Part shown: piece after piece, positions 8,660 to 18,641 of the stretch
Numbering within the stretch: position 1 is the stretch's first letter
How the letters are laid out: each line of letters starts with the position of its first letter
From: Candidatus Bipolaricaulota bacterium
GTDB lineage: Bacteria > Bipolaricaulota > Bipolaricaulia > UBA7950 > UBA9294
Reading direction: 5' to 3'
Assembly (NCBI GenBank): GCA_030606565.1
Contig: JAUWGE010000004.1
Coordinates: 67,256 to 103,065 of the forward strand
Length of the DNA: 35,810 nt
Program-made: the position numbers and the translations under genes
Notes under the pieces: generated by a model
What the model saw: the letters and a program-made list of their open reading frames with translations, nothing else
Database searches by the model: none
What the model was told of the DNA's origin: nothing

Positions 8660-9964
8660 CTAACTGCTTAAAATTCTTGCCCCATACCCCAATTCCTCTA
8701 TCGCGGCCACGATCCGGTCGGAATCGAGGTTATTACCTTCTACTACGACACGGCCACGTTTCAAGCTCACCTCTACAGTTTGTACACCGGTGCACTCGGT
8801 AACTGCGCGTCTGACGCTTTCGATGCAGTGATTGCAGTGTATGCCGATGACAGCAAGCTCCAACCGCTGCCCTTGGGAAGACCTCTTGGTCTTGCTGTTT
8901 TCTGTTTGGGGCTTAGCGGCACCTTTCTCACGAAGGAATCTTGATCCGAAGGAGAACGTAAGCACCCCTAATAGGACGACCGCCGCTGACTGATAGAATA
9001 AACCGCCTTCCGCGTGCGCATGGGCGTAGGTTGCAATCTGCGGCAGCGTTTCTTCCACTATCGGTATCAGCCGGTCTAACAGCAGGCCAAAACCAACCGC
9101 GCTCACTGCTATAGTAAAAAGATACAGTGCTGCAGTACGTTTGCCCAGCACTTTCCAAACAGTGGTCAAGGTGGCGGCATTAGTAGCAGGCCCGGCGATC
9201 AGGAAGGCCAGTACCGCGCCGAACGATACTCCCATGTGGAGAAAACCGGCGGCGATCGGTATCGATGCAGTAGCACATACGTATATCGGTACCCCCACTG
9301 CCATCATCACCAGGATCGACAGCACGCCACCACCGATGTACGCCTGCAAGTACCCTGCTGGCACCAGCGCGGCCATCACCCCAGCGATCAGGATGCCGAT
9401 GAGCAAGGCAGGCCCGATATCCTGCGGCAAGGTAATAAACCCGTACCTCAGGATGCGCGACAAGACACTCTTATCTCCCTTATCTGCGCAGCGATCACCG
9501 GTGCAGACAGATCGTTGCGCCTCGCTTCGCGCCGAACCTTCTCCGTTTGGCTCACCGAAGAACCGCACCAACACACCGCCGAGGAAGCTGGTGAGCAGGG
9601 CCACAATCGGTCGGAAGACGGCAAAGACTGGGCCAAGCAGGGAGTAGGTGACAAGGATCGAATCCACCCCGGTCTGTGGTGTTGACAGCAGAAACGCGGT
9701 TGTGGCTGCCCGGCTCGCACCGTGCCTATGAATCGAAGCTGACACCGGGATTACGCCACATGAACACAACGGAAGCGGTACGCCAAAGATTGACGCTTTT
9801 ACCACCGGTGCCAGCCCGCGCCCACCCAGGTGTCGTTCCACCCATTCGGGAGAGATACCAACCGACAGTATTCCCGCTACCAGAAAGCCAAACAAGAGAT
9901 ACGGAGCCATCTGGCCAAGCAACCGCCAGCTTTCGCCGATGATCAGAGACAGGGTATTAAGCAT
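8660..9964 (-). CDS. SO_0444/YraQ-type metal efflux permease with C-terminal heavy-metal-associated domain
   Basis: The 434-residue membrane protein has two permease repeats of the DUF318/YraQ type, with the hallmark PLPLCSCGVIP at about residues 62-72, and about eight to ten hydrophobic segments. A cytoplasmic-looking linker carries CTGDRCADKGDK. The C-terminal 70 residues form a ferredoxin-like metal-binding domain with GIHCNHCIESV. Related proteins are described as copper/zinc efflux transporters. The fused metal-binding domain supports soft-metal handling, but the metal is not determined. It lies 135 bases downstream of the oxidative-stress operon on the same strand, so it may be read through from it or have its own promoter. 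Confidence 0.85.
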   Translation of the reverse strand: MLNTLSLIIGESWRLLGQMAPYLLFGFLVAGILSVGISPEWVERHLGGRGLAPVVKASIFGVPLPLCSCGVIPVSASIHRHGASRAATTAFLLSTPQTGVDSILVTYSLLGPVFAVFRPIVALLTSFLGGVLVRFFGEPNGEGSARSEAQRSVCTGDRCADKGDKSVLSRILRYGFITLPQDIGPALLIGILIAGVMAALVPAGYLQAYIGGGVLSILVMMAVGVPIYVCATASIPIAAGFLHMGVSFGAVLAFLIAGPATNAATLTTVWKVLGKRTAALYLFTIAVSAVGFGLLLDRLIPIVEETLPQIATYAHAHAEGGLFYQSAAVVLLGVLTFSFGSRFLREKGAAKPQTENSKTKRSSQGQRLELAVIGIHCNHCIESVRRAVTECTGVQTVEVSLKRGRVVVEGNNLDSDRIVAAIEELGYGARILSS

Positions 9965-10229: not shown

Positions 10230-10571
10230 TTAAAGTGTGAGTGAGCTCTCCCACAGGCCGTGGATGTTGCAGTACTCGACCGCGATCAATTCACTTAACC
10301 CCTCCAGGTTAACATGGGTAATGACCGTGGGGACCCCGTAGGTCGGTCCCAGGTCGAACGTCGCCACGTGCACCGGTCCCCCGTCCTTCACCCCGTAAAG
10401 GGCGATCCACTTGATGTGGTGCTCCACGGTGTTTGGGTGTGGCACCTCCTTACCAACGGTGACCTTGACGATCTTTTCCCCGCAGTCGGGGCAAGCGACC
10501 AGCTCGATCACCGGGACGTGCTTCTCCTTCCCTTCTTGTGCTTCCGTTTTGATTAACTCTCCAAGCCGCAT
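10230..10571 (-). CDS. sor: Superoxide reductase (neelaredoxin type)
   Basis: The 113-residue protein has the mononuclear iron centre ligands of superoxide reductase: EKHVPVIE with the catalytic Glu-Lys-His, HPN followed by EHHIKWI, and CNIHGLWE carrying the axial Cys and the last His. The N-terminal desulforedoxin domain of the two-iron form is absent, so it is the one-iron neelaredoxin class. It reduces superoxide to peroxide without making O2, the usual anaerobe strategy. The peroxide can pass to the rubrerythrin and peroxiredoxin of the same operon. AAGGAGG precedes the ATG. Confidence 0.95.
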   Translation of the reverse strand: MRLGELIKTEAQEGKEKHVPVIELVACPDCGEKIVKVTVGKEVPHPNTVEHHIKWIALYGVKDGGPVHVATFDLGPTYGVPTVITHVNLEGLSELIAVEYCNIHGLWESSLTL

Positions 10572-10610: not shown

Positions 10611-11786
10611 TCATTTTTTTAGATCTCGGTGACGGTTGGCTATTTCATCGGCGAGACGATCGAGCGCCTCCAACGTTGTTTCGTCAGGCAACCCCTTCAC
10701 CATCACCGGATCGAACCACTCGACTTTCAGTGTCTTCAAGAGTCCCATGACCTGTTCGGGCGCCTTTCCCGCCCAACCGTAGGAGCCGATCACCGCGGCG
10801 TACCGCAGCTTCGGCCGCAGGGCGTTCGTCAGGTAGGCGGCGTAAACTACGCTTGGGTGAGGTCCAACAAGCATGGTCGGTGCGCCAAAGACGACCGTCG
10901 CCGCATCTACTAGGGTGATGGCCAGCTTTCCAATGTCGGTTACCGTCATGTTGAACGGTTCTGTTTGCACCCCGCGATTGGCGAGGGCGGAGATCAGGTG
11001 GTCCACCATCACCTGTGTGCTCCCGTGCATCGACACATATGGGAGCACGACGAGGTTTTCCGGTGGATCGAGGACCCAGTGTCTGTAAGCGTCGAGGATG
11101 AATGCCGGGTCATCGTAGAGCGGCCCGTGGCTTGGGGCGATGATCTCGATCTCGTAGCGGGTGAGCCTTTCCAGATGCCCCTTGATAATCGAGCTAAATG
11201 GCATCATGATCTCGGCGTAGTAGCGTTTCGCCGCCTCGTAGACCCGTTTCCGCTCTCTCCCGTAGAGCTCGGTTGTAGCGAGGTGTGATCCGAGGAAGTC
11301 GCAGGTAAAGAGGATCTCCTCCTCTTTGAGGTAAGTGAACATCGTCTCCGGCCAGTGGACCCACGGCGCATGGATGAACTCGAGGGTCCGATCTCCAAGG
11401 GAGAGGGTCTCACCGTCCTCCACGGTCACGATCCGATCCGGGTCGACGTGTAGGTGATCGACGACCATCGGTCTTGCCTTCGGCGTCGTGATAAGCGTGG
11501 CGTTTGGATGCCGGTCGAGGACCTCAGGAACAGAGCCTGAGTGATCCTGCTCCACGTGCTGGACGATCAAGAAGTCAAGCTGTGGCACGGATTCAAGCTG
11601 CGCCATCAGAACATCGATCTTGTCTGGATCGACGGTGTCGATGAGAACGGTCTTCTCGCTACCCGTAACGAGGTAGGCGTTGTAGCTTGTCCCATCAGGG
11701 AGCGGAATCAGCTCGTCGAACAGTCGCCGATCGAAGTCCTGCGCCCCCATCCAGAAGACTCCTGGTACGATCTCTCTAGCGTTCAA
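10611..11786 (-). CDS. fprA: Flavodiiron protein (FprA-type O2/NO reductase)
   Basis: The 391-residue protein has a metallo-beta-lactamase-like domain with the diiron ligand set QHVEQDHSG, the His of PWVHWPE, the Asp of FTCDFLGSH and the His of PSHGPLYDD. A flavodoxin domain follows (about residues 250-390, YVSMHGSTQVM and FGAPTMLVG). Such enzymes reduce O2 to water or NO to N2O with electrons from rubredoxin, whose gene lies two genes upstream. The start is a TTG with AGGAGG just before it, overlapping the stop of the hybrid cluster gene. Confidence 0.93.
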   Translation of the reverse strand: MNAREIVPGVFWMGAQDFDRRLFDELIPLPDGTSYNAYLVTGSEKTVLIDTVDPDKIDVLMAQLESVPQLDFLIVQHVEQDHSGSVPEVLDRHPNATLITTPKARPMVVDHLHVDPDRIVTVEDGETLSLGDRTLEFIHAPWVHWPETMFTYLKEEEILFTCDFLGSHLATTELYGRERKRVYEAAKRYYAEIMMPFSSIIKGHLERLTRYEIEIIAPSHGPLYDDPAFILDAYRHWVLDPPENLVVLPYVSMHGSTQVMVDHLISALANRGVQTEPFNMTVTDIGKLAITLVDAATVVFGAPTMLVGPHPSVVYAAYLTNALRPKLRYAAVIGSYGWAGKAPEQVMGLLKTLKVEWFDPVMVKGLPDETTLEALDRLADEIANRHRDLKK

Positions 11787-11796
11787 CGGTAGCCTC

Positions 11797-13095
11797 CTAG
11801 AGCATCTCTGCGAGGTCTGTTTTCGGATCGCCGATTAGCCGTAGGTCGTAGTTCTCTTGCAGCACCTCGAGGATCTCCTCGTTCACCCACGCCGGGAGGA
11901 TCGGGCCAAGGTAGATCCCTTTGATCCCGAGCGAGAGTAACCCCCACAGGATGGTGACCGCTTTCTGTTCCATCCAGGATAGGACAATGGTTAGCGGAAG
12001 GTCGTTCACCTCCACTCCGAAGAGTTCGGAGAGGGCGATGGCGATATCGATTGCGACGATCGAGTCGTTGCACTGGCCGAGGTCGATCAGACGCGGGATC
12101 CCCTCGATATCCCCCAGGTCGAGGTCGTTGATCCGGAACTTGCCACACGCCAAGGTGAGAACGACCGTATCCCTTGGCAGGAGCTTCACGAACTCGCGGT
12201 AGTAGCTTGCCTTGCGAAGCGGCGAATCACATCCGCCGACGAGGAAGAAGTGCCGGATTTTCCCTTCTTCTACGAGCGCCTTGATCTTGTCTTTAAGCGA
12301 GAGGATCGTGGACAGAGAGAACCCGGTGGTGAGCGTCACTTCACCCAACTCATCTGGGAGTTCGGGTAGCGAGCGCGCCTTCTCAATCACCTCTGTGAAG
12401 TCGTAGCCTGCGATGTGCTTCACCCCAGGGAGCCTTGCCGGGCCGGTGGTGAACATGCGGTCCTTGTAGTCGTCTTTCGGTAAAAGGACGCAGTTTGACG
12501 TTCCGAGAATCGCCACCGGATAGTGAGAGAAGAGCTCCTTCTGATCGAACCACGCCTTACCCAGGTTTCCCACCAGGTGCTTATACTTCTTCAGGTCCGG
12601 ATATCCGTGCGCCGGGAGGAGCTCTGAGTGGGTGTAGACGTTGATCCCGGTCCCTCCTGACTGCGCAAGGAGTGCAGCGAGCGCCTTTAACCCGTGCCCG
12701 GTGACAAGGATCCCCGGTCCCTTTATGGTTCCGGTTGGTACTTCTGTCGGTTCGGGCTCCCCGTAGGTCTCGATGTGTGCCTTCTTCAAGAGGCGCATCG
12801 TTTTTATCGCCATCTCTCCGGATTCGAGCGCGAGCTTCACGAAGTCCTCAGCGTCGAAGTTAACGTTGGTGAAAGTGGAGTAGAACGCGCGTTCCAGGAA
12901 CGCGTCGATCTTGGTGTCGGTGTAGCCGAGTTCACGCGCGTGATAGAGGTAGGCCGCCATCCCTTTCGCTGAGAAGATGAGGTTATCCTGCAGCCGGGCC
13001 ACGGTCGCCGGCTTCCCGCAGACCCCTTGCACGGTGCAGCCTTCTCCCCTCGCTGTCTGGGAGCACTGGTAGCAAAACATCTTTAGATCGTTCAC
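11797..13095 (-). CDS. hcp: Hybrid cluster protein (hydroxylamine/NO reductase), short class
   Basis: At 432 residues this is the short class of hybrid cluster protein. The N-terminal [4Fe-4S] motif uses C8, C11, C20 and C26. The hybrid-cluster ligands are visible as TGHG, YTHSE, SNCVLL, GGCDSP, LACGKF, GQCNDS and the EQK pair in SWMEQKAV. Reported activities are hydroxylamine reduction and NO reduction in nitrosative and oxidative stress. The frame starts at a GTG one base after the rubredoxin stop, with AAGGAGA in front. The in-frame ATG five codons later is less well placed. Confidence 0.95.
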
Positions 13096-13096
13096 G

Positions 13097-13258
13097 TTAA
13101 CTCTCCTTTTCGAACAGTTCTTTCCCTACGCCGCACTCTGGGCAGACCCAAGTATCGGGTAGATCCTCGAATGCCGTGCCCGCCTGGATCCCGTTTACGG
13201 GATCACCGACCGCCGGATCGTAGACGTAACCGCACACCGTGCAGACCCACTTCTCCAT
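13097..13258 (-). CDS. rub: Rubredoxin
   Basis: This 53-residue protein has the two iron-binding knuckles [10 protein letters not shown] and CPECGVGK. It carries single electrons, here most plausibly to the flavodiiron protein and rubrerythrin. It starts two bases after the flavin reductase stop, with AGGAGG overlapping that stop, and the hybrid cluster protein gene begins one base after its own stop. Gene order flavin reductase then rubredoxin matches the domain order of the fused high-molecular-weight rubredoxin (Hrb) of Moorella. Confidence 0.95.
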
Positions 13259-13260
13259 TC

Positions 13261-13776
13261 CTACCTCCTCTTTCTCATCGTCTTTCGGTACTCGTTGTAG
13301 GTTAAGGGTTCTCCCCCCTCCCGCGTCCCGGCACGCTCGACCAGGGCCACAAATAAGGTATGTGTCTCAAGATCGAGCATCATCTCTGGGATAACGCGGC
13401 ATTCGTAGAACGCCTTTGCCTTTGGGAGGATCGGGATTCCGTTCTCGCTTAACTCGTGGGGAGTCTCTGCGAACTTGTCCACCGCGCGCCCGGACTGGAA
13501 GCCGAAGTGGCGGATCACCTCCGGACAGTCTTCATCCTCGCGATCGAGGACGTTGACGACGAAGCGCTCGCTTGCCGCGATCATCTCGTGGGTGAGTGAG
13601 CGCTTGTTGACCCCGATTGCGATCCGCGGTGGTGCGCTTGTCACCTGCATCAGCGCGTCGAGGCACTGGCCGTTTAACCGGCCTTCATGTTCGGCGGTGA
13701 CGACGTACAGGCCGTGCGTCACCTGAAACAGGGCTTGGTTCAGCTCCGCGGTCTCTTTCACGATGAAAAACGCCAT
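13261..13776 (-). CDS. Flavin reductase-like FMN protein (Hrb N-domain type)
   Basis: The 171-residue protein belongs to the flavin-reductase-like fold. Signatures are an N-terminal [10 protein letters not shown], then [12 protein letters not shown] and [11 protein letters not shown], and it ends in a basic tail. In acetogens a fused version with rubredoxin (Hrb) transfers electrons from NAD(P)H to the flavodiiron protein. Here the rubredoxin is the next gene, two bases away, so the pair should do the same as separate polypeptides. GGGAGG precedes the ATG. Confidence 0.88.
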
Positions 13777-13802: not shown

Positions 13803-14315
13803 TTACTCCTCGTTCTCGGTGGGGGCGGCGATACGCGTTCCCAGCTCACGATCGGCCATGATCAGGCCGTGGCCGGAATCACCGATCCGTTTCAATAGCT
13901 CCACCACCTTTAACGTCGAGGACTCCTCCTCCACCTGCTCGGTGACGAACCATTGAAGCATGATCCCTGCTGCGTGATCTTTCTCTTCGGCAGCGAGCTT
14001 AACCAAGTCGTTGATCTTCCCGGTGATGAACCGCTCGTGCTCGTGGGCCGCCTTGAATGCCTCTAAGGGCGAGGCCCACTCCTTTTGCGGCTGGGCGAGG
14101 GCTTTAAGTTCGACCCGTCCATCCCGCTCGTCGATGTGGTTGAAGAACTTCATCGCGTGAGCGAGTTCCTCCTGAGCCTGGACAGTCATCCACTGCGCCA
14201 TCCCGTCGAGGCTCTCGGAATGAAAGTACGCTACCATGGAGAGGTAGAGGTATGCCGATTCCAGTTCGTGCTTGATCTGCTCGTTTATCGCATCCTGCAT
14301 CCGTTTTCCGATCAT
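13803..14315 (-). CDS. ftn: Bacterial non-haem ferritin
   Basis: The 170-residue four-helix protein has ferroxidase ligands at E17 (HELESAY), E50 and H53 (EELAHAM), E94 (HEHE), Q127 and E130 (TEQVEEE). It stores iron as a mineral while consuming O2 or peroxide, which lowers Fenton chemistry. It is the fifth gene of the perR operon, between peroxiredoxin and flavin reductase, with an AAGGAG site upstream. Confidence 0.95.
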   Translation of the reverse strand: MIGKRMQDAINEQIKHELESAYLYLSMVAYFHSESLDGMAQWMTVQAQEELAHAMKFFNHIDERDGRVELKALAQPQKEWASPLEAFKAAHEHERFITGKINDLVKLAAEEKDHAAGIMLQWFVTEQVEEESSTLKVVELLKRIGDSGHGLIMADRELGTRIAAPTENEE

Positions 14316-14330
14316 TGATTTCTCCTTTCC

Positions 14331-14999
14331 TTAAAGCTTCTTGTGGCAGAGCCACCAGTCGAAACACTCGTATTCCTTAACCGCTTTTTTTGCCGCTTCT
14401 TCATCCGTGGGCGGTGGGACGATGACCTCGTCACCCACGAGCTCGTTGTTTGGCCAGTTTGCCGGGATCGCGACGCCGTTTTGGTCGGCGGTTTGCAACC
14501 CTTTTACCATCCGCACGATCTCGTCCATGTTGCGCCCCAGTTCCTGGGGGTAGTAGAGGATGGCGCGGATAATCCCTTTGGGATCGACAATGAACACCGC
14601 GCGTACCGTGTTAGTTCCCTTTCCCGGGTGGATCAGTCCGAGTTGGTTTGCCACCGCCTCGGTCCCGGCAATTATGGGAAAACTTATCTCTACCTTGAGG
14701 TGATCCTTGATCCACTCTGTCCACTTCATGTGCGAGAAGACCTGGTCAATGGAGAGACCGACAAGACCGCAATCGAGCTTGCGAAACTCGTCGAAACGCT
14801 TCTGGAAGGCGATAAACTCGGTCGTACAGACCGGCGTGAAGTCCGCCGGATGGCTGAACAGGACGAACCACTTGCCACTGTAGTCCTCCGGAAGAGAGAG
14901 TCTCCCGTGTGTCGTCTGCACCTCCATCTTGGGAAGCGCATCGCCGATGAGGGGCATCCCTTTTCTTTCATCCTTGGTGAGTAGGTACCGATCTTCCAT
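14331..14999 (-). CDS. Peroxiredoxin (Prx6/archaeal thioredoxin peroxidase type)
   Basis: The 222-residue protein has the peroxidatic cysteine C58 in [13 protein letters not shown] and a long C-terminal arm with C212 and C218 (YECFDWWLC). This is the arrangement of Aeropyrum-type 2-Cys Prx6 enzymes. It reduces H2O2 and alkyl peroxides, probably with thioredoxin- or rubredoxin-derived electrons. It lies between rubrerythrin and ferritin, with an AAGGAGG site. Confidence 0.94.
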
Positions 15000-15025: not shown

Positions 15026-15598
15026 TTACCAGTTTTCGCCTAAAAGCTCGAAGTGCGCCTGCGGATGGGCACAGGCCGGGCAGACCGAAGGGGCCTCGGT
15101 GCCGGTGTGCAGGTACCCGCAGTTGCGACAGCGCCAGACCACCGGTTGATCCTTCTTGAAGACGGTCCCTGCCTCGACGTTTCTAAGCAGGCCGAGATAA
15201 CGTTTTTCGTGTTGCTTCTCCGCCACTGCAATCGCTTCAAAGACCTTCGCGATCTCGGTGAAACCCTCCCCGCGGGCTGTCTCGGCAAACCCGGGATACA
15301 TCTCCTCCCACTCGTAGTGCTCACCGCCGGCCGCAGCCTTCAGGTTCTGTGCTGTCGTCCCGATAACCCCGGCGGGAAACGCCGCCTCGACCTTGACCTC
15401 GCCGCCTTGAAGGAACTTAAACAGCCTCTTCGCGTGCTCCTTCTCCTGATTTGCCGTCTCCTCAAAGATCGTTTGAATCTGTACGAATCCGTCCTTCTTC
15501 GCCTGGCTGGCGAAATAGGAGTAGCGGTTACGCGCCTGCGACTCGCCGGCGAACGCTGTAAGTAGGTTCTTCTCCGTCCGTGATCCTTTCAGTTCCAT
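15026..15598 (-). CDS. rbr: Rubrerythrin
   Basis: The 190-residue protein has an N-terminal four-helix diiron domain ([34 protein letters not shown]) and a C-terminal rubredoxin-like domain with CRNCGY and CPACAHP. It is an NADH- and rubredoxin-linked peroxidase that reduces H2O2 to water in the anaerobe cytoplasm. AAAGGAGG stands before the ATG, and mutM ends 21 bases upstream. Confidence 0.96.
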
Positions 15599-15619: not shown

Positions 15620-16465
15620 TCATAGAGCCGTTTTATTAATCTCCCTTAACTTTTGCACGTTTGTAGTCTTCTCGCACCTCTGGCAACCAGGGCAGAAGTA
15701 GGTCGATCGCCCGGCCTGCACGATCCGTTCAATCTTCTTTCCGCAACGGCGGCAGGTCTCTCCCTCCCGGCCGTAGACCGAGAGAACCTCCTGAAACCCT
15801 CCGTACTCTCCGGACGTGTTGCGATAGTCGGAGATCGTATCGCCGAGTGTAGTTCCCATGTGGTCGATTGCCTCCTTGAGTACCCCCACGATAGCGGGGT
15901 GAAGCGCCCGGATCTCCTTTTGGGTGAGCGTGTTCCCAGCTCGGCACGGATCGATACGTGCGCGCCACAGGGCTTCGGCAGAGTAGATGTTCCCGATCCC
16001 GGCGATCCTCTTCTGGTTCATCAGCAGGGGCTTTATCGGGGCGCGCGAGGCCATGACGACCTCTGCCAACCGCTCCGGCGTGAACTCCGGGTCGAACGGG
16101 TCGATTCCGAGCCGGTGCGGGAAGCCGTTACGCGAGTACTCGACCGTTCCCAACCGCCGCGGGTTGATGAAATAGACCTTTCCACGGTCGAGGTGGAGGA
16201 TGAAGCGTGTGTGCCGTACCTCCTCGGGGGAACGGGTGCGGGTGAGTCGGCCGGACATACGCAGGTGGACGATGAGCGACCTCCCCCCGGAGAGGCGGAA
16301 GACGATGTACTTTCCTTGCCGCTCGATCTTCTCGATCGTCGTTCCGACGATCTCATGCACAGGGAGATCTAGGCGCGGGTCGAGGACCTGTAGTCTCTCG
16401 ATCCTCGCTCCGCTTAGATCGCTCAGCTCGCGGACGATCGTTTCGACCTCAGGGAGCTCCGGCAT
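15620..16465 (-). CDS. mutM: Formamidopyrimidine-DNA glycosylase
   Basis: The 281-residue protein starts MPELPEVET, with the catalytic Pro and Glu of the Fpg/Nei family. It has the helix-two-turn-helix segment (GIGNIYSAEALW) and ends in a CRRC...CPGC zinc finger. It removes 8-oxoguanine and ring-opened purines from DNA. Its start overlaps the end of perR by 17 bases, and rubrerythrin follows 21 bases on, which ties oxidative DNA repair to the peroxide regulon. Confidence 0.96.
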   Translation of the reverse strand: MPELPEVETIVRELSDLSGARIERLQVLDPRLDLPVHEIVGTTIEKIERQGKYIVFRLSGGRSLIVHLRMSGRLTRTRSPEEVRHTRFILHLDRGKVYFINPRRLGTVEYSRNGFPHRLGIDPFDPEFTPERLAEVVMASRAPIKPLLMNQKRIAGIGNIYSAEALWRARIDPCRAGNTLTQKEIRALHPAIVGVLKEAIDHMGTTLGDTISDYRNTSGEYGGFQEVLSVYGREGETCRRCGKKIERIVQAGRSTYFCPGCQRCEKTTNVQKLREINKTAL

Positions 16466-16943
16466 CGTCCCTCCTTTTCGTGCTCACTGAAGAACGCCTT
16501 ACTCCTGTTTTAGATTCGTTCTTATTCTGGCTGTTCTGCTTTTGACATTGTACACAAATCCCGTGGAGGTAGACTTGTGCTACTTCCACGAGGTGCCCGC
16601 AAATCTCGTCCCCCGGTCGGATGGAACAGGGAAGATCGACGTCGTATAGGTTGCCACAGACTCGGCAGAGAAAGTGTGGATGGGGACTGGGGTTATAGTC
16701 ATACCGCGCCGCCTCGCGGGCGATGGTGAGTTCCTGAATACCCCCTGCCTTCTTCAGCGCGTCGAGCACGTTGTACACCGTCGCCTTGGCGAGCGAGGGG
16801 AACTGGTCCCGCACCCCTTGATAGACCTCCTCCGCGGTGGGGTGGGTGTGGTTATTCTCCAGGTACTCCAATACTGCCAACCGCTGGATCGTAGGGACAA
16901 GTCCCAACTTTCGCAACCTTGTAGAGCGAGCTCCAATATCCAT
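16449..16943 (-). CDS. perR: PerR-type peroxide-sensing repressor (Fur family)
   Basis: This 164-residue Fur-family protein has a winged helix (ATVYNVLDAL) and two CxxC zinc pairs (C93, C96 and C130, C133). The regulatory metal ligands align with a constant offset of three to Bacillus PerR: H34, D82, H88, H90 and D101 for H37, D85, H91, H93 and D104. Asp at the last position is the PerR rather than Fur signature and supports iron-catalysed peroxide sensing. A basic tail of about 30 residues follows the last CxxC. It heads the 11-gene operon. Confidence 0.93.
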   Translation of the reverse strand: MDIGARSTRLRKLGLVPTIQRLAVLEYLENNHTHPTAEEVYQGVRDQFPSLAKATVYNVLDALKKAGGIQELTIAREAARYDYNPSPHPHFLCRVCGNLYDVDLPCSIRPGDEICGHLVEVAQVYLHGICVQCQKQNSQNKNESKTGVRRSSVSTKRRDDAGAP

Positions 16944-16944
16944 A

Positions 16945-16959
16945 TTAGAACTATTATAA
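16945..16959 (-). promoter_or_regulatory. PerR-box-like operator at the perR start
   Basis: Minus-strand TTATAATAGTTCTAA matches the PerR box TTATAAT-N-ATTATAA at twelve of fourteen fixed positions. It begins in the -10 hexamer and ends just before the ATG, so bound repressor would block transcription of the operon, including perR. Confidence 0.65.
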
Positions 16960-16981
16960 ACTTAGAACGACTAAAAATCAA
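16953..16981 (-). promoter_or_regulatory. Promoter of the perR operon
   Basis: On the minus strand TTGATT (16976-16981) is followed by exactly 17 bases and a perfect TATAAT (16953-16958). The predicted start at about 16946 lies within three or four bases of the ATG at 16943, and no ribosome binding site is possible, so the message should be leaderless. TTAGAAC is repeated at 16945-16951 and 16962-16968. Confidence 0.75.
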
Positions 16982-17013
16982 GTGCTGTGAGAAGAGTGCT
17001 ACAGGTGAAGACT

Positions 17014-17049
17014 GCTGGCCGAAGCCAGCGATTTTGGTCGCGCAAAATC
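17014..17049. other. Two tandem perfect hairpins upstream of perR
   Basis: GCTGGC-CGAA-GCCAGC (17014-17029) is followed without gap by GATTTTG-N6-CAAAATC (17030-17049). Neither has a U tract. They lie in the 305-base gap between the SDR gene and perR. The rest of this gap, beyond the promoter, shows nothing I can support. Confidence 0.45.
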
Positions 17050-17248
17050 CGATGGTTGGTTTGCTGTAGGACGCTGTTGATGGCCTTTTAGATGGGGCGG
17101 GTGGGAGCGGAGGCTAAGTAGGCGGACGGTTTTCTTAAGTCAGATTATCTATCTTCGATAAAAGTAAGGGATTTGATGATATCCATCATTGATCCTCAAT
17201 CGGCACTGCCTAACTGCAAGAGCTCGCCTACGCCGCGCAGGAGTATTA

Positions 17249-18091
17249 CTAATCCCTCGGGTTCGACATCCTATACGCCGGGGGTTGATTTCCATCGATG
17301 TCGGTGAAGCCGTACTCGCGCGCAAGATCACCCACGGTCAGGACGCTTCCCGCCTTTTCCATCACGTTGGGATCGGTCGCGAGGGCGGCAACCGCCCGCC
17401 CGATGTACTCCACCGATTCGGTCTTGCTCAGTTCTTCAGGAGTGTGTTTATCTGCCATCACTGATTCCGTGCGCATCCAACCGGGCGAGAGTGCCACAGC
17501 GGCGATATGGTACTTCCGCAGTTCCAGTGCCATCCCGTAAGCCATGCGGTTGATTGCCGTCTTTGCCAAGTCATAGGGTAGATTGCTGAGACATTTGCCC
17601 CGATCCCAAAAGGTGGTATTCACTATGAGTCCCTGGCGGTGTGACATCATGAGCGGGATCGCGAAGCGACTGGCCGTATAGTGGGCGCGCACCCCTGCCG
17701 TGAATATCTTCTCCCAGCGCCAGAGCGGCTGCTCCCAGAACGGGAGGTCGAAGGTGCGGTCATCGTATTGTTCATACCCGCCCCAGACGTTGTTCACCAG
17801 AATATCGAGCCGGCCGTGTTCCTGCTTCACTCGCTCAAACAGCGCTTCGACTTGTTCATCCACCGTGTGGTTGCAGCGGACGGGAATGCCCGTCCCACCT
17901 CGTGCGGCGAGTTGCTCTGCGGTGTCTTCGATGGTGGTGCCAGGCAAGTCTGGTCTTGTGGGATCACCCCTGATGCTGCGTCCCGTCACGTAGACCGTGG
18001 CTCCCTCCTCACCAAGCACGAGGGCGATACCGCGCCCCCCACCGCGACTGGCTCCAGTGACCACGGTTATCTTCCCCTTTAAACGCTGCAT
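17249..18091 (-). CDS. Short-chain dehydrogenase/reductase, DHRS1-like
   Basis: The 280-residue Rossmann protein has the cofactor motif TGASRGGGRGIALVLGEEG and NN at LDILVNNVWGG. The catalytic YDLAK is preceded by NTTFWDRGK, where a Thr seems to sit where most family members have Ser. Sequence style is that of the DHRS1-like group; the substrate is unknown. It lies upstream of perR on the same strand, about 305 bases away, and shares no operon signal with it. Confidence 0.88.
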   Translation of the reverse strand: MQRLKGKITVVTGASRGGGRGIALVLGEEGATVYVTGRSIRGDPTRPDLPGTTIEDTAEQLAARGGTGIPVRCNHTVDEQVEALFERVKQEHGRLDILVNNVWGGYEQYDDRTFDLPFWEQPLWRWEKIFTAGVRAHYTASRFAIPLMMSHRQGLIVNTTFWDRGKCLSNLPYDLAKTAINRMAYGMALELRKYHIAAVALSPGWMRTESVMADKHTPEELSKTESVEYIGRAVAALATDPNVMEKAGSVLTVGDLAREYGFTDIDGNQPPAYRMSNPRD

Positions 18092-18155
18092 AATCCGCCG
18101 CCGTTGCTTTTAGTTTTTCAGCCGGCACTAGCTTTAGCTAAGGTCCTTATCGCTC

Positions 18156-18641
18156 TTAGCTATTGCCATTCCACGACTCGATTTCCACCTCATCAACGGT
18201 CTCGTTATCCTCTCCAAACGTAAAGCGCGCCCGTATCCGCTCCCCTGCAAGGATGCGTGGGAGCCAATGAGCCCCATCTTTCCACATGCGCTCGAAGGGT
18301 ATATCGTCTACCTTGAACCAAACAGGCTTCATCTCTGTGCTTTCCGTCGGCGTGCCCTCCCACGTTGTCACCACAAAGACATGCACCACTTGATTCCAAG
18401 AGGGTTTTGCGGGAAACAGGAATGTTAAGTGGCCCATCTGCTGGAGGTCCTTTTTGCAGATCTTGATTCCTGTCTCTTCTTCTAGTTCTCTGATAGCGGC
18501 TGTTGCTACCGTTTCTCCCGCCTCGACTTTGCCCCCAGGACCATTGTATTTCCCCGCGCCAAACCCGATCTTCTTGAAGCCCAAGAGGACCTCATTGGCC
18601 GGATTTCCTCGTATCGGAAAACAAAGTGTCGCGTCTTTCAT
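18156..18641 (-). CDS. NUDIX hydrolase, MTH1-like (oxidised nucleotide diphosphatase)
   Basis: The 161-residue protein has a complete NUDIX box from GGKVEAGE to RELEEETGI at about residues 36-58. It also has the MTH1-like KYNGPGGK lead and a C-terminal WLPRILAGERIRARFTF region. Such enzymes hydrolyse 8-oxo-dGTP and related purine triphosphates, though the substrate is not proven here. Its ATG overlaps the stop of the small upstream frame in an ATGA junction and has AAGGAG in front. Confidence 0.88.
   Translation of the reverse strand: MKDATLCFPIRGNPANEVLLGFKKIGFGAGKYNGPGGKVEAGETVATAAIRELEEETGIKICKKDLQQMGHLTFLFPAKPSWNQVVHVFVVTTWEGTPTESTEMKPVWFKVDDIPFERMWKDGAHWLPRILAGERIRARFTFGEDNETVDEVEIESWNGNS

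Follow-up and report, generated by a model that had tools for sequence, protein, structure and literature searches.

A conserved 41-base stretch appears to combine promoter, PerR operator and near-leaderless start codon at the head of an oxygen-defence operon in Candidatus Bipolaricaulota

The perR operon

The window, a stretch of 35,810 nucleotides, is part of a 1.81-Mb genome (G000) whose close relatives are Candidatus Bipolaricaulota/Acetothermia MAGs. Its minus strand carries perR and a series of genes for oxygen defence (Table 1). The initial annotation had proposed an 11-gene message in which only the first gene lacks a ribosome binding site, and both statements agree with the sequence: the 11 genes were identified one by one from perR to a desulforedoxin, and a strong Shine-Dalgarno (SD) sequence precedes 10/10 of the downstream genes and is missing before perR. 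The gaps between the genes are at most 39 nt, and a scan of the minus strand for internal promoter- or terminator-like sites in the operon found none. The operon is conserved across the family, with the gene order kept in many of its genera. perR and its putative target genes lie in one predicted transcription unit with a candidate operator at the perR promoter, the arrangement expected of an autoregulated operon. Further along the same strand, an ArsP-type permease with a C-terminal heavy-metal-associated domain is encoded at 8660-9964; it lies 265 bp after the superoxide reductase gene, has its own SD, and could belong to the perR message or be separate from it.

Table 1. Features of the perR promoter and operon in the window; alignment columns are numbered with the first T of the -35 element as column 1
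Feature	Position	Strand	Remarks
-35 element TTGATT	16976..16981	-	From sequence; TTG invariant in 20/20 promoters, conservation begins here
Box 1 position, TTTTAGTCGTTCTAA	16962..16976	-	Columns 6-20; weak PerR-type box, 10/14 to B. subtilis consensus; symmetry peak at column 13
-10 element TATAAT	16953..16958	-	From sequence; T1, A2, A4 and T6 invariant in 20/20
Box 2, TTATAATAGTTCTAA	16945..16959	-	Columns 23-37; 12/14 to B. subtilis PerR box; overlaps -10 and predicted +1
Predicted transcription start, leader AAT	16946	-	Inferred from -10 spacing (7th base after -10)
perR, Fur family with PerR-type ligands	16449..16943	-	ATG start (16943-16941), no SD
mutM (formamidopyrimidine-DNA glycosylase)	15620..16465	-	Overlaps perR by 17 bp; strong SD
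Rubrerythrin (rbr)	15026..15598	-	Strong SD
Peroxiredoxin (prx)	14331..14999	-	Strong SD
Ferritin	13803..14315	-	Strong SD
Flavin reductase-like protein	13261..13776	-	Strong SD
Rubredoxin	13097..13258	-	From sequence; position conserved in relatives; strong SD
Hybrid cluster protein/hydroxylamine reductase (hcp)	11797..13095	-	Strong SD
Flavodiiron protein	10611..11786	-	Strong SD
Superoxide reductase (neelaredoxin/desulfoferrodoxin domain)	10230..10571	-	Strong SD
Small desulforedoxin-like ORF, 39 aa	10100..10219	-	Last of the 11 genes; strong SD

The regulator

The perR product matches PF01475 with 82.6 bits (cut-off 23.1), indicating a Fur fold by sequence, and its closest solved structure is Bacillus subtilis PerR (2fe3, E 9.8e-24). 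The regulatory-metal ligands H37, D85, H91, H93, and D104 all align with those of B. subtilis PerR, and the Cys4 structural zinc site is present as two CxxC pairs with the four zinc cysteines aligned. In the two further Fur-family proteins encoded by G000 (L002 and L003), the D104 site is occupied by Glu. Scores against the NCBIfam PerR models fall short of the curated cut-offs (NF052545, 96.1 bits vs. 180; NF047406, 84.3 bits vs. 200), which probably reflects the narrow clades on which the models were trained; they look lineage-specific and therefore do not make a defining biochemical test. These comparisons support the assignment of the protein as a PerR-type regulator of the Fur family, and by analogy its DNA binding and redox behaviour would be those of the B. 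subtilis family.

Promoter geometry and the near-leaderless start

Read on the minus strand, the perR promoter has the layout TTGATT-17-TATAAT-9-ATG, the two hexamers and the 17-base spacer being exactly where they had first been placed. It is the sole sigma-70-like site found in a scan of 16400-18300 on both strands. With 16946 as the predicted transcription start, the leader of perR would be 3 nt long. No SD precedes the perR ATG in the window, and no in-frame start codon occurs between this ATG and the stop codon 18 nt upstream. In its sequence, perR looks like a near-leaderless gene: it begins with AUG, an SD is missing, and the -10 element lies within the expected range of about 6-9 nt ahead of the start. 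Farther out, a hairpin with a 7-bp stem (GCTGGC-TTCG-GCCAGC, 17013-17030) lies 30-50 bp upstream of the -35 element; it is present in 3/4 same-genus genomes and absent from the fourth.

The geometry was compared among 20 non-redundant orthologous perR promoters, of which 19 come from the same family and one (L017) represents a sister family within the same order. PerR protein identity goes down to about 43-50%; the sequences in this set are related rather than independent, and the statistics given below ignore descent. The TTG of the -35 element, the exact 17-bp spacer, and a -10 element of the form TAnnnT are kept in 20/20 promoters, and the start codon is ATG in every one of the 20. The distance from the -10 element to the ATG is 9 bases in 16-17 promoters, 8 in 2, and 6 in 1-2, the counts being uncertain because L014 can be read in two ways. 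The information content is about zero upstream and rises abruptly at the edge of the -35 element. Two loci of the same genus whose PerR proteins are 98% identical (L001 and L008) have flanks that are unrelated right up to TTGATT, and for this reason the 41-bp unit looks self-contained, as the sequence comparison suggests. The same pair displays a rearrangement boundary at the promoter edge, just upstream of window position 16981.

One could suppose that the ATG spacing is conserved for some other reason and that the message begins further upstream, so that perR would have an ordinary leader lacking an SD; an upstream gene (17249-18091) on the same strand makes read-through possible. This explanation is very unlikely given that there is no other promoter-like site on the perR strand in 16400-18300, no conservation upstream of the -35 element, a flank that differs wholly between close relatives, and neither an SD nor an upstream start codon. 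We concluded that a near-leaderless perR start is supported by the rigid promoter-ATG geometry in 20/20 orthologues; the leaderless start that had been proposed stands in this modified form, with a predicted leader of 3 nt and not zero.

Two tandem positions of a predicted operator

A PerR-box-like sequence had been described as running from the -10 element to the base next to the ATG. This sequence (box 2, TTATAATAGTTCTAA) agrees with the B. subtilis consensus TTATAATNATTATAA at 12/14 fixed positions and, like known PerR boxes, is a 15-bp 7-1-7 inverted repeat close to that consensus at a putatively regulated promoter. The match from the -10 element onward is as described; the box stops at 16945, and a single base (T at 16944) separates it from the ATG. 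When the segment was shuffled with the -35, -10, and ATG fixed, 3.9% of the shuffled versions had a box with at least 12/14 matches at the box 2 position, and 4.9% had one at any place. The single-sequence evidence for a box in the window is thus weak (about 5% by chance) because the -10 element supplies half of box 2. Genome-wide, the PerR consensus with up to two mismatches occurs at two places, the same number as for the control; since the control matches equally often, we make no claim of a wider PerR regulon. Searching the rest of G000 brought out no additional PerR-type site, hits being no more frequent than for controls, so that the assignment of the box to PerR rests on one operon per genome. 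The significance of the candidate box comes from its conservation.

Among the 20 promoters, inverted-repeat symmetry peaks exactly at columns 13 (4.40 of 7 pairs) and 30 (3.75 of 7), compared with a null of 2.03 (sd 0.26); in 99% of the shuffled sets the maximum stayed under 3.00. In all 20 promoters, the B. subtilis PerR consensus fits best at a place beginning in column 6 or 23 (null 9.8 promoters, sd 2.1, maximum 17). From this agreement, the predicted operator consists of two tandem 15-bp positions that share one geometry and are offset by 17 bp; the first is in the -35/-10 spacer and the second extends from the -10 element up to the base before the ATG. The earlier picture of an operator overlapping both promoter and translation start is upheld by inverted repeats at fixed places and is revised in that there are two box positions, not one. 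The whole arrangement might be an AT-rich promoter whose layout arose by chance and plays no part in regulation, as could be argued from the genome-wide consensus matches, which do not exceed the control. Such an explanation is hardly credible: it is already contradicted by conservation, i.e., by the 20/20 positional agreement with an external consensus and by a promoter geometry that is rigid throughout the family.

The two positions differ in strength. The window is of the box 2 type, its box 1 being degenerate (3/7 symmetric pairs). Box 1 is strong in other genera (e.g., TTAGACTTCGTCTAA in L021), many relatives have a degenerate box 2 with 2-3/7 symmetric pairs, and in many the stronger box is the one in the spacer. 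L015 and L024 have lost box 1 and have a strong box 2 (5-6/7; TTAGAATGATTCCAA in L015). Measured by palindromy, the strengths of the two boxes trade off (r = -0.71, permutation p = 0.0002, uncorrected for descent); measured by the match to the B. subtilis consensus, no such trade-off is seen (r = -0.04). The commonest box form across the family is TTAGA-N5-TCTAA. A search for TTAGAN5TCTAA across the family gave hits at or below the control frequency overall, among them several perR promoters and the double box of a relative without perR (G030, see below).

The weakness of box 2 in many relatives bears on a further possibility, namely that the near-leaderless promoter is real and box 2 is a by-product of the -10 element and A+T richness, the operator being only the spacer box 1 or belonging to another repressor. 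Half of box 2 does come from the -10 element, its chance frequency in the window is about 4-5%, and several genera combine a near-perfect box 1 with only 2-3/7 symmetric pairs in box 2. However, TCTAA in columns 33-37 is conserved downstream of the -10 element, where a promoter alone demands nothing, and the other leaderless promoters of G000 have 0-3/7 symmetric pairs at this place vs. 5 for perR. The strong box 2 of L015 and L024, where box 1 is lost, and the near-perfect state of both boxes in G030 also speak against a by-product, and we consider this explanation unlikely, though it is the most serious of the alternatives.

Relatives that lost perR

In G030, which belongs to another genus (g8) of the same family, perR is gone from the head of the operon while the promoter and both boxes are near-perfect (TTAGACGCAATCTAA-gc-TTAGAATGATTCTAA). 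Immediately after box 2 come AAGGAGAGGG and the start of mutM, so that the promoter is joined to the SD of mutM, and the same junction is found on two contig ends, C11 and C109 (L099 and L107). No PerR orthologue was found in the G030 genome, which is 87% complete, and the persistence of its boxes speaks against the proposed role of PerR. In G010, of the same genus, a C-terminal perR remnant precedes mutM and the upstream region has been replaced (L033/L109, C63). G030 and G010 each encode one other Fur-family protein. Because the boxes of G030 are kept in the absence of perR, the operator seems to be tied to the operon and to be independent of the leaderless start.

Proposed mechanism

The perR promoter observation is confirmed mostly as first read, and the comparative data strengthen it: a single conserved segment of 41 bases seems to be promoter, repressor docking site, and translation start at once for an 11-gene oxygen-defence operon. 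From the observed geometry, conservation, box positions, metal ligands, operon, and SD absence, we infer the transcription start, PerR binding, peroxide release, and translational consequence as follows. The 41-bp unit would be a sigma-70-type promoter with transcription starting about 3 bases before the perR ATG, at which PerR, bound to one or both boxes, represses its own operon until released by peroxide; we assign this reading a probability of roughly 80%. PerR loaded with Fe(II) or Mn(II) would bind one or both of the 15-bp 7-1-7 inverted repeats and block RNA polymerase. Peroxide would oxidise the metal-site histidines, PerR would leave the DNA, and the 11-gene message would be made; the encoded enzymes would then remove peroxide and superoxide, and newly made PerR would reclose the promoter. 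PerR would be translated from an AUG behind a 3-nt leader and the enzymes from strong SD sites. Such a short leader would imply the 5'-terminal AUG initiation pathway, as for lambda cI and tetR (PMC4965119). As a hypothesis, the near-leaderless start sets the repressor-to-enzyme ratio.

Comparison with known systems

PerR-led rubrerythrin operons with predicted palindromic PerR sites are found in Geobacter (perR-rbr-roo) and Desulfovibrio vulgaris (perR-rbr-rdl) (Rodionov et al., 2004; PMC545781). They share with the Bipolaricaulota operon a leading perR together with rubrerythrin and oxygen-reducing genes, and the predicted Geobacter site overlaps the -10 element; in contrast, their sites do not fit the B. 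subtilis consensus, there is one box, and they are not leaderless, the Geobacter perR genes having a predicted SD and a site at -99 (PMC545781). In the rbr-perR-sor-CD0828 operon of Clostridioides difficile, PerR represses its own rubrerythrin and superoxide reductase operon, which is induced by H2O2, but perR is second in the operon and the available part of that report describes no leaderless start (PMC11980386). Campylobacter jejuni has a PerR box inside the perR promoter, where autoregulation was demonstrated, and differs in having two promoters and a second regulator, CosR (PMC8231278). B. subtilis PerR itself (2fe3) is alike in its protein ligands and in the 7-1-7 15-bp box TTATAATNATTATAA, whereas the Bipolaricaulota unit has two boxes 17 bp apart, the TTAGA-N5-TCTAA form, and an operator touching the start codon.

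The start itself also has counterparts. Lambda cI and transposon tetR are repressors made from a 5'-terminal AUG with a regulated promoter adjoining the gene, but neither heads a long defence operon of SD-led genes and neither senses peroxide (PMC4965119). The -10-adjacent ORFs of Deinococcus-Thermus (PMC12340547) and the TA-led genes (Zheng, 2011; PMC3160421) likewise have the -10 element just before the start codon, and DdrO sites were reported near or overlapping the -10 elements of -10-adjacent ORFs in Deinococcus-Thermus (PMC12340547). Leaderless genes make up a fifth to a third in those systems (PMC12340547, PMC3160421) and a minority in G000, and perR, unlike those genes, keeps a clear -35 element.

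PerR-led rubrerythrin operons, autoregulation, and -10-overlapping sites are thus already known, as are leaderless repressors and -10-adjacent genes, and a literature search pointed to no paper on how perR is regulated in Bipolaricaulota. Each ingredient is known from elsewhere; the compact unit itself is conserved in sequence across this Bipolaricaulota family, and what is new is the conserved fusion of a promoter, a predicted two-position operator, and a start codon at the head of the perR operon. For an uncultured phylum, it offers predictions anchored in sequence: a regulon, a promoter code, and a second way of starting translation. The relatives form a natural series with two box positions, spacings of 6, 8, and 9, and one perR-less lineage with its boxes kept, which lets one ask why some repressors are leaderless and how operators shift inside a promoter while control is kept.

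Near-leaderless starts elsewhere

SD-like motifs were found for 192/228 genes in a roughly 300-kb sample of G000. The SD and -10 spacing counts in this sample were too sparse to estimate the leaderless share, and a pattern search was used instead: TTG-N19..21-TAWAMT-N6..9-ATG occurs at 23 places in G000, compared with 0 for the reversed pattern. About a dozen of the 23 begin long frames without an SD, including pheS, trxB, nadE, hutI, a TetR regulator, an XRE-cupin regulator, a rhomboid protein, a UvrD/PcrA-type helicase, and others (names assigned by reading the sequences). We concluded that near-leaderless starts, as predicted by this pattern, are a normal minority class in G000 and not special to perR.

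In other families of the class, the perR homologues L139, L140, L142, L146, and L156 have a -10 element within 4-9 nt of an ATG, and their operator sequences differ; some further homologues have an SD-led start or an unclear one. Among L148-L161, also from other families of the class, are perR homologues in which the -10 element is followed by Fur-like repeats that seemingly include the start codon (e.g., TATAATGCAAATCATAATCATGAG in L150). A broader scheme may be put forward tentatively, and we regard it as less likely than not: class-wide, the perR genes would have compact units that fuse the operator with the start codon, and the near-leaderless start itself would be under selection, keeping repressor synthesis low and free of an SD compared with the SD-led enzymes of the same message. 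The operator sequence would drift between the two positions and between families, as with the Fur-like boxes overlapping the ATG elsewhere, and the near-leaderless layout would persist.

Two further near-leaderless starts of G000 deserve mention. The TetR-family gene L077 (G000:C17:3527-3566) has the same layout as perR, TTGAAC-17-TATACT-8-ATG with no SD, and carries the palindrome ACGAACGTTCGT in its spacer; it is possibly another near-leaderless autoregulated repressor. On contig C52, one near-leaderless helicase start is present in two copies (L090 and L091) about 2.2 kb apart, one of them truncated after 35 codons.
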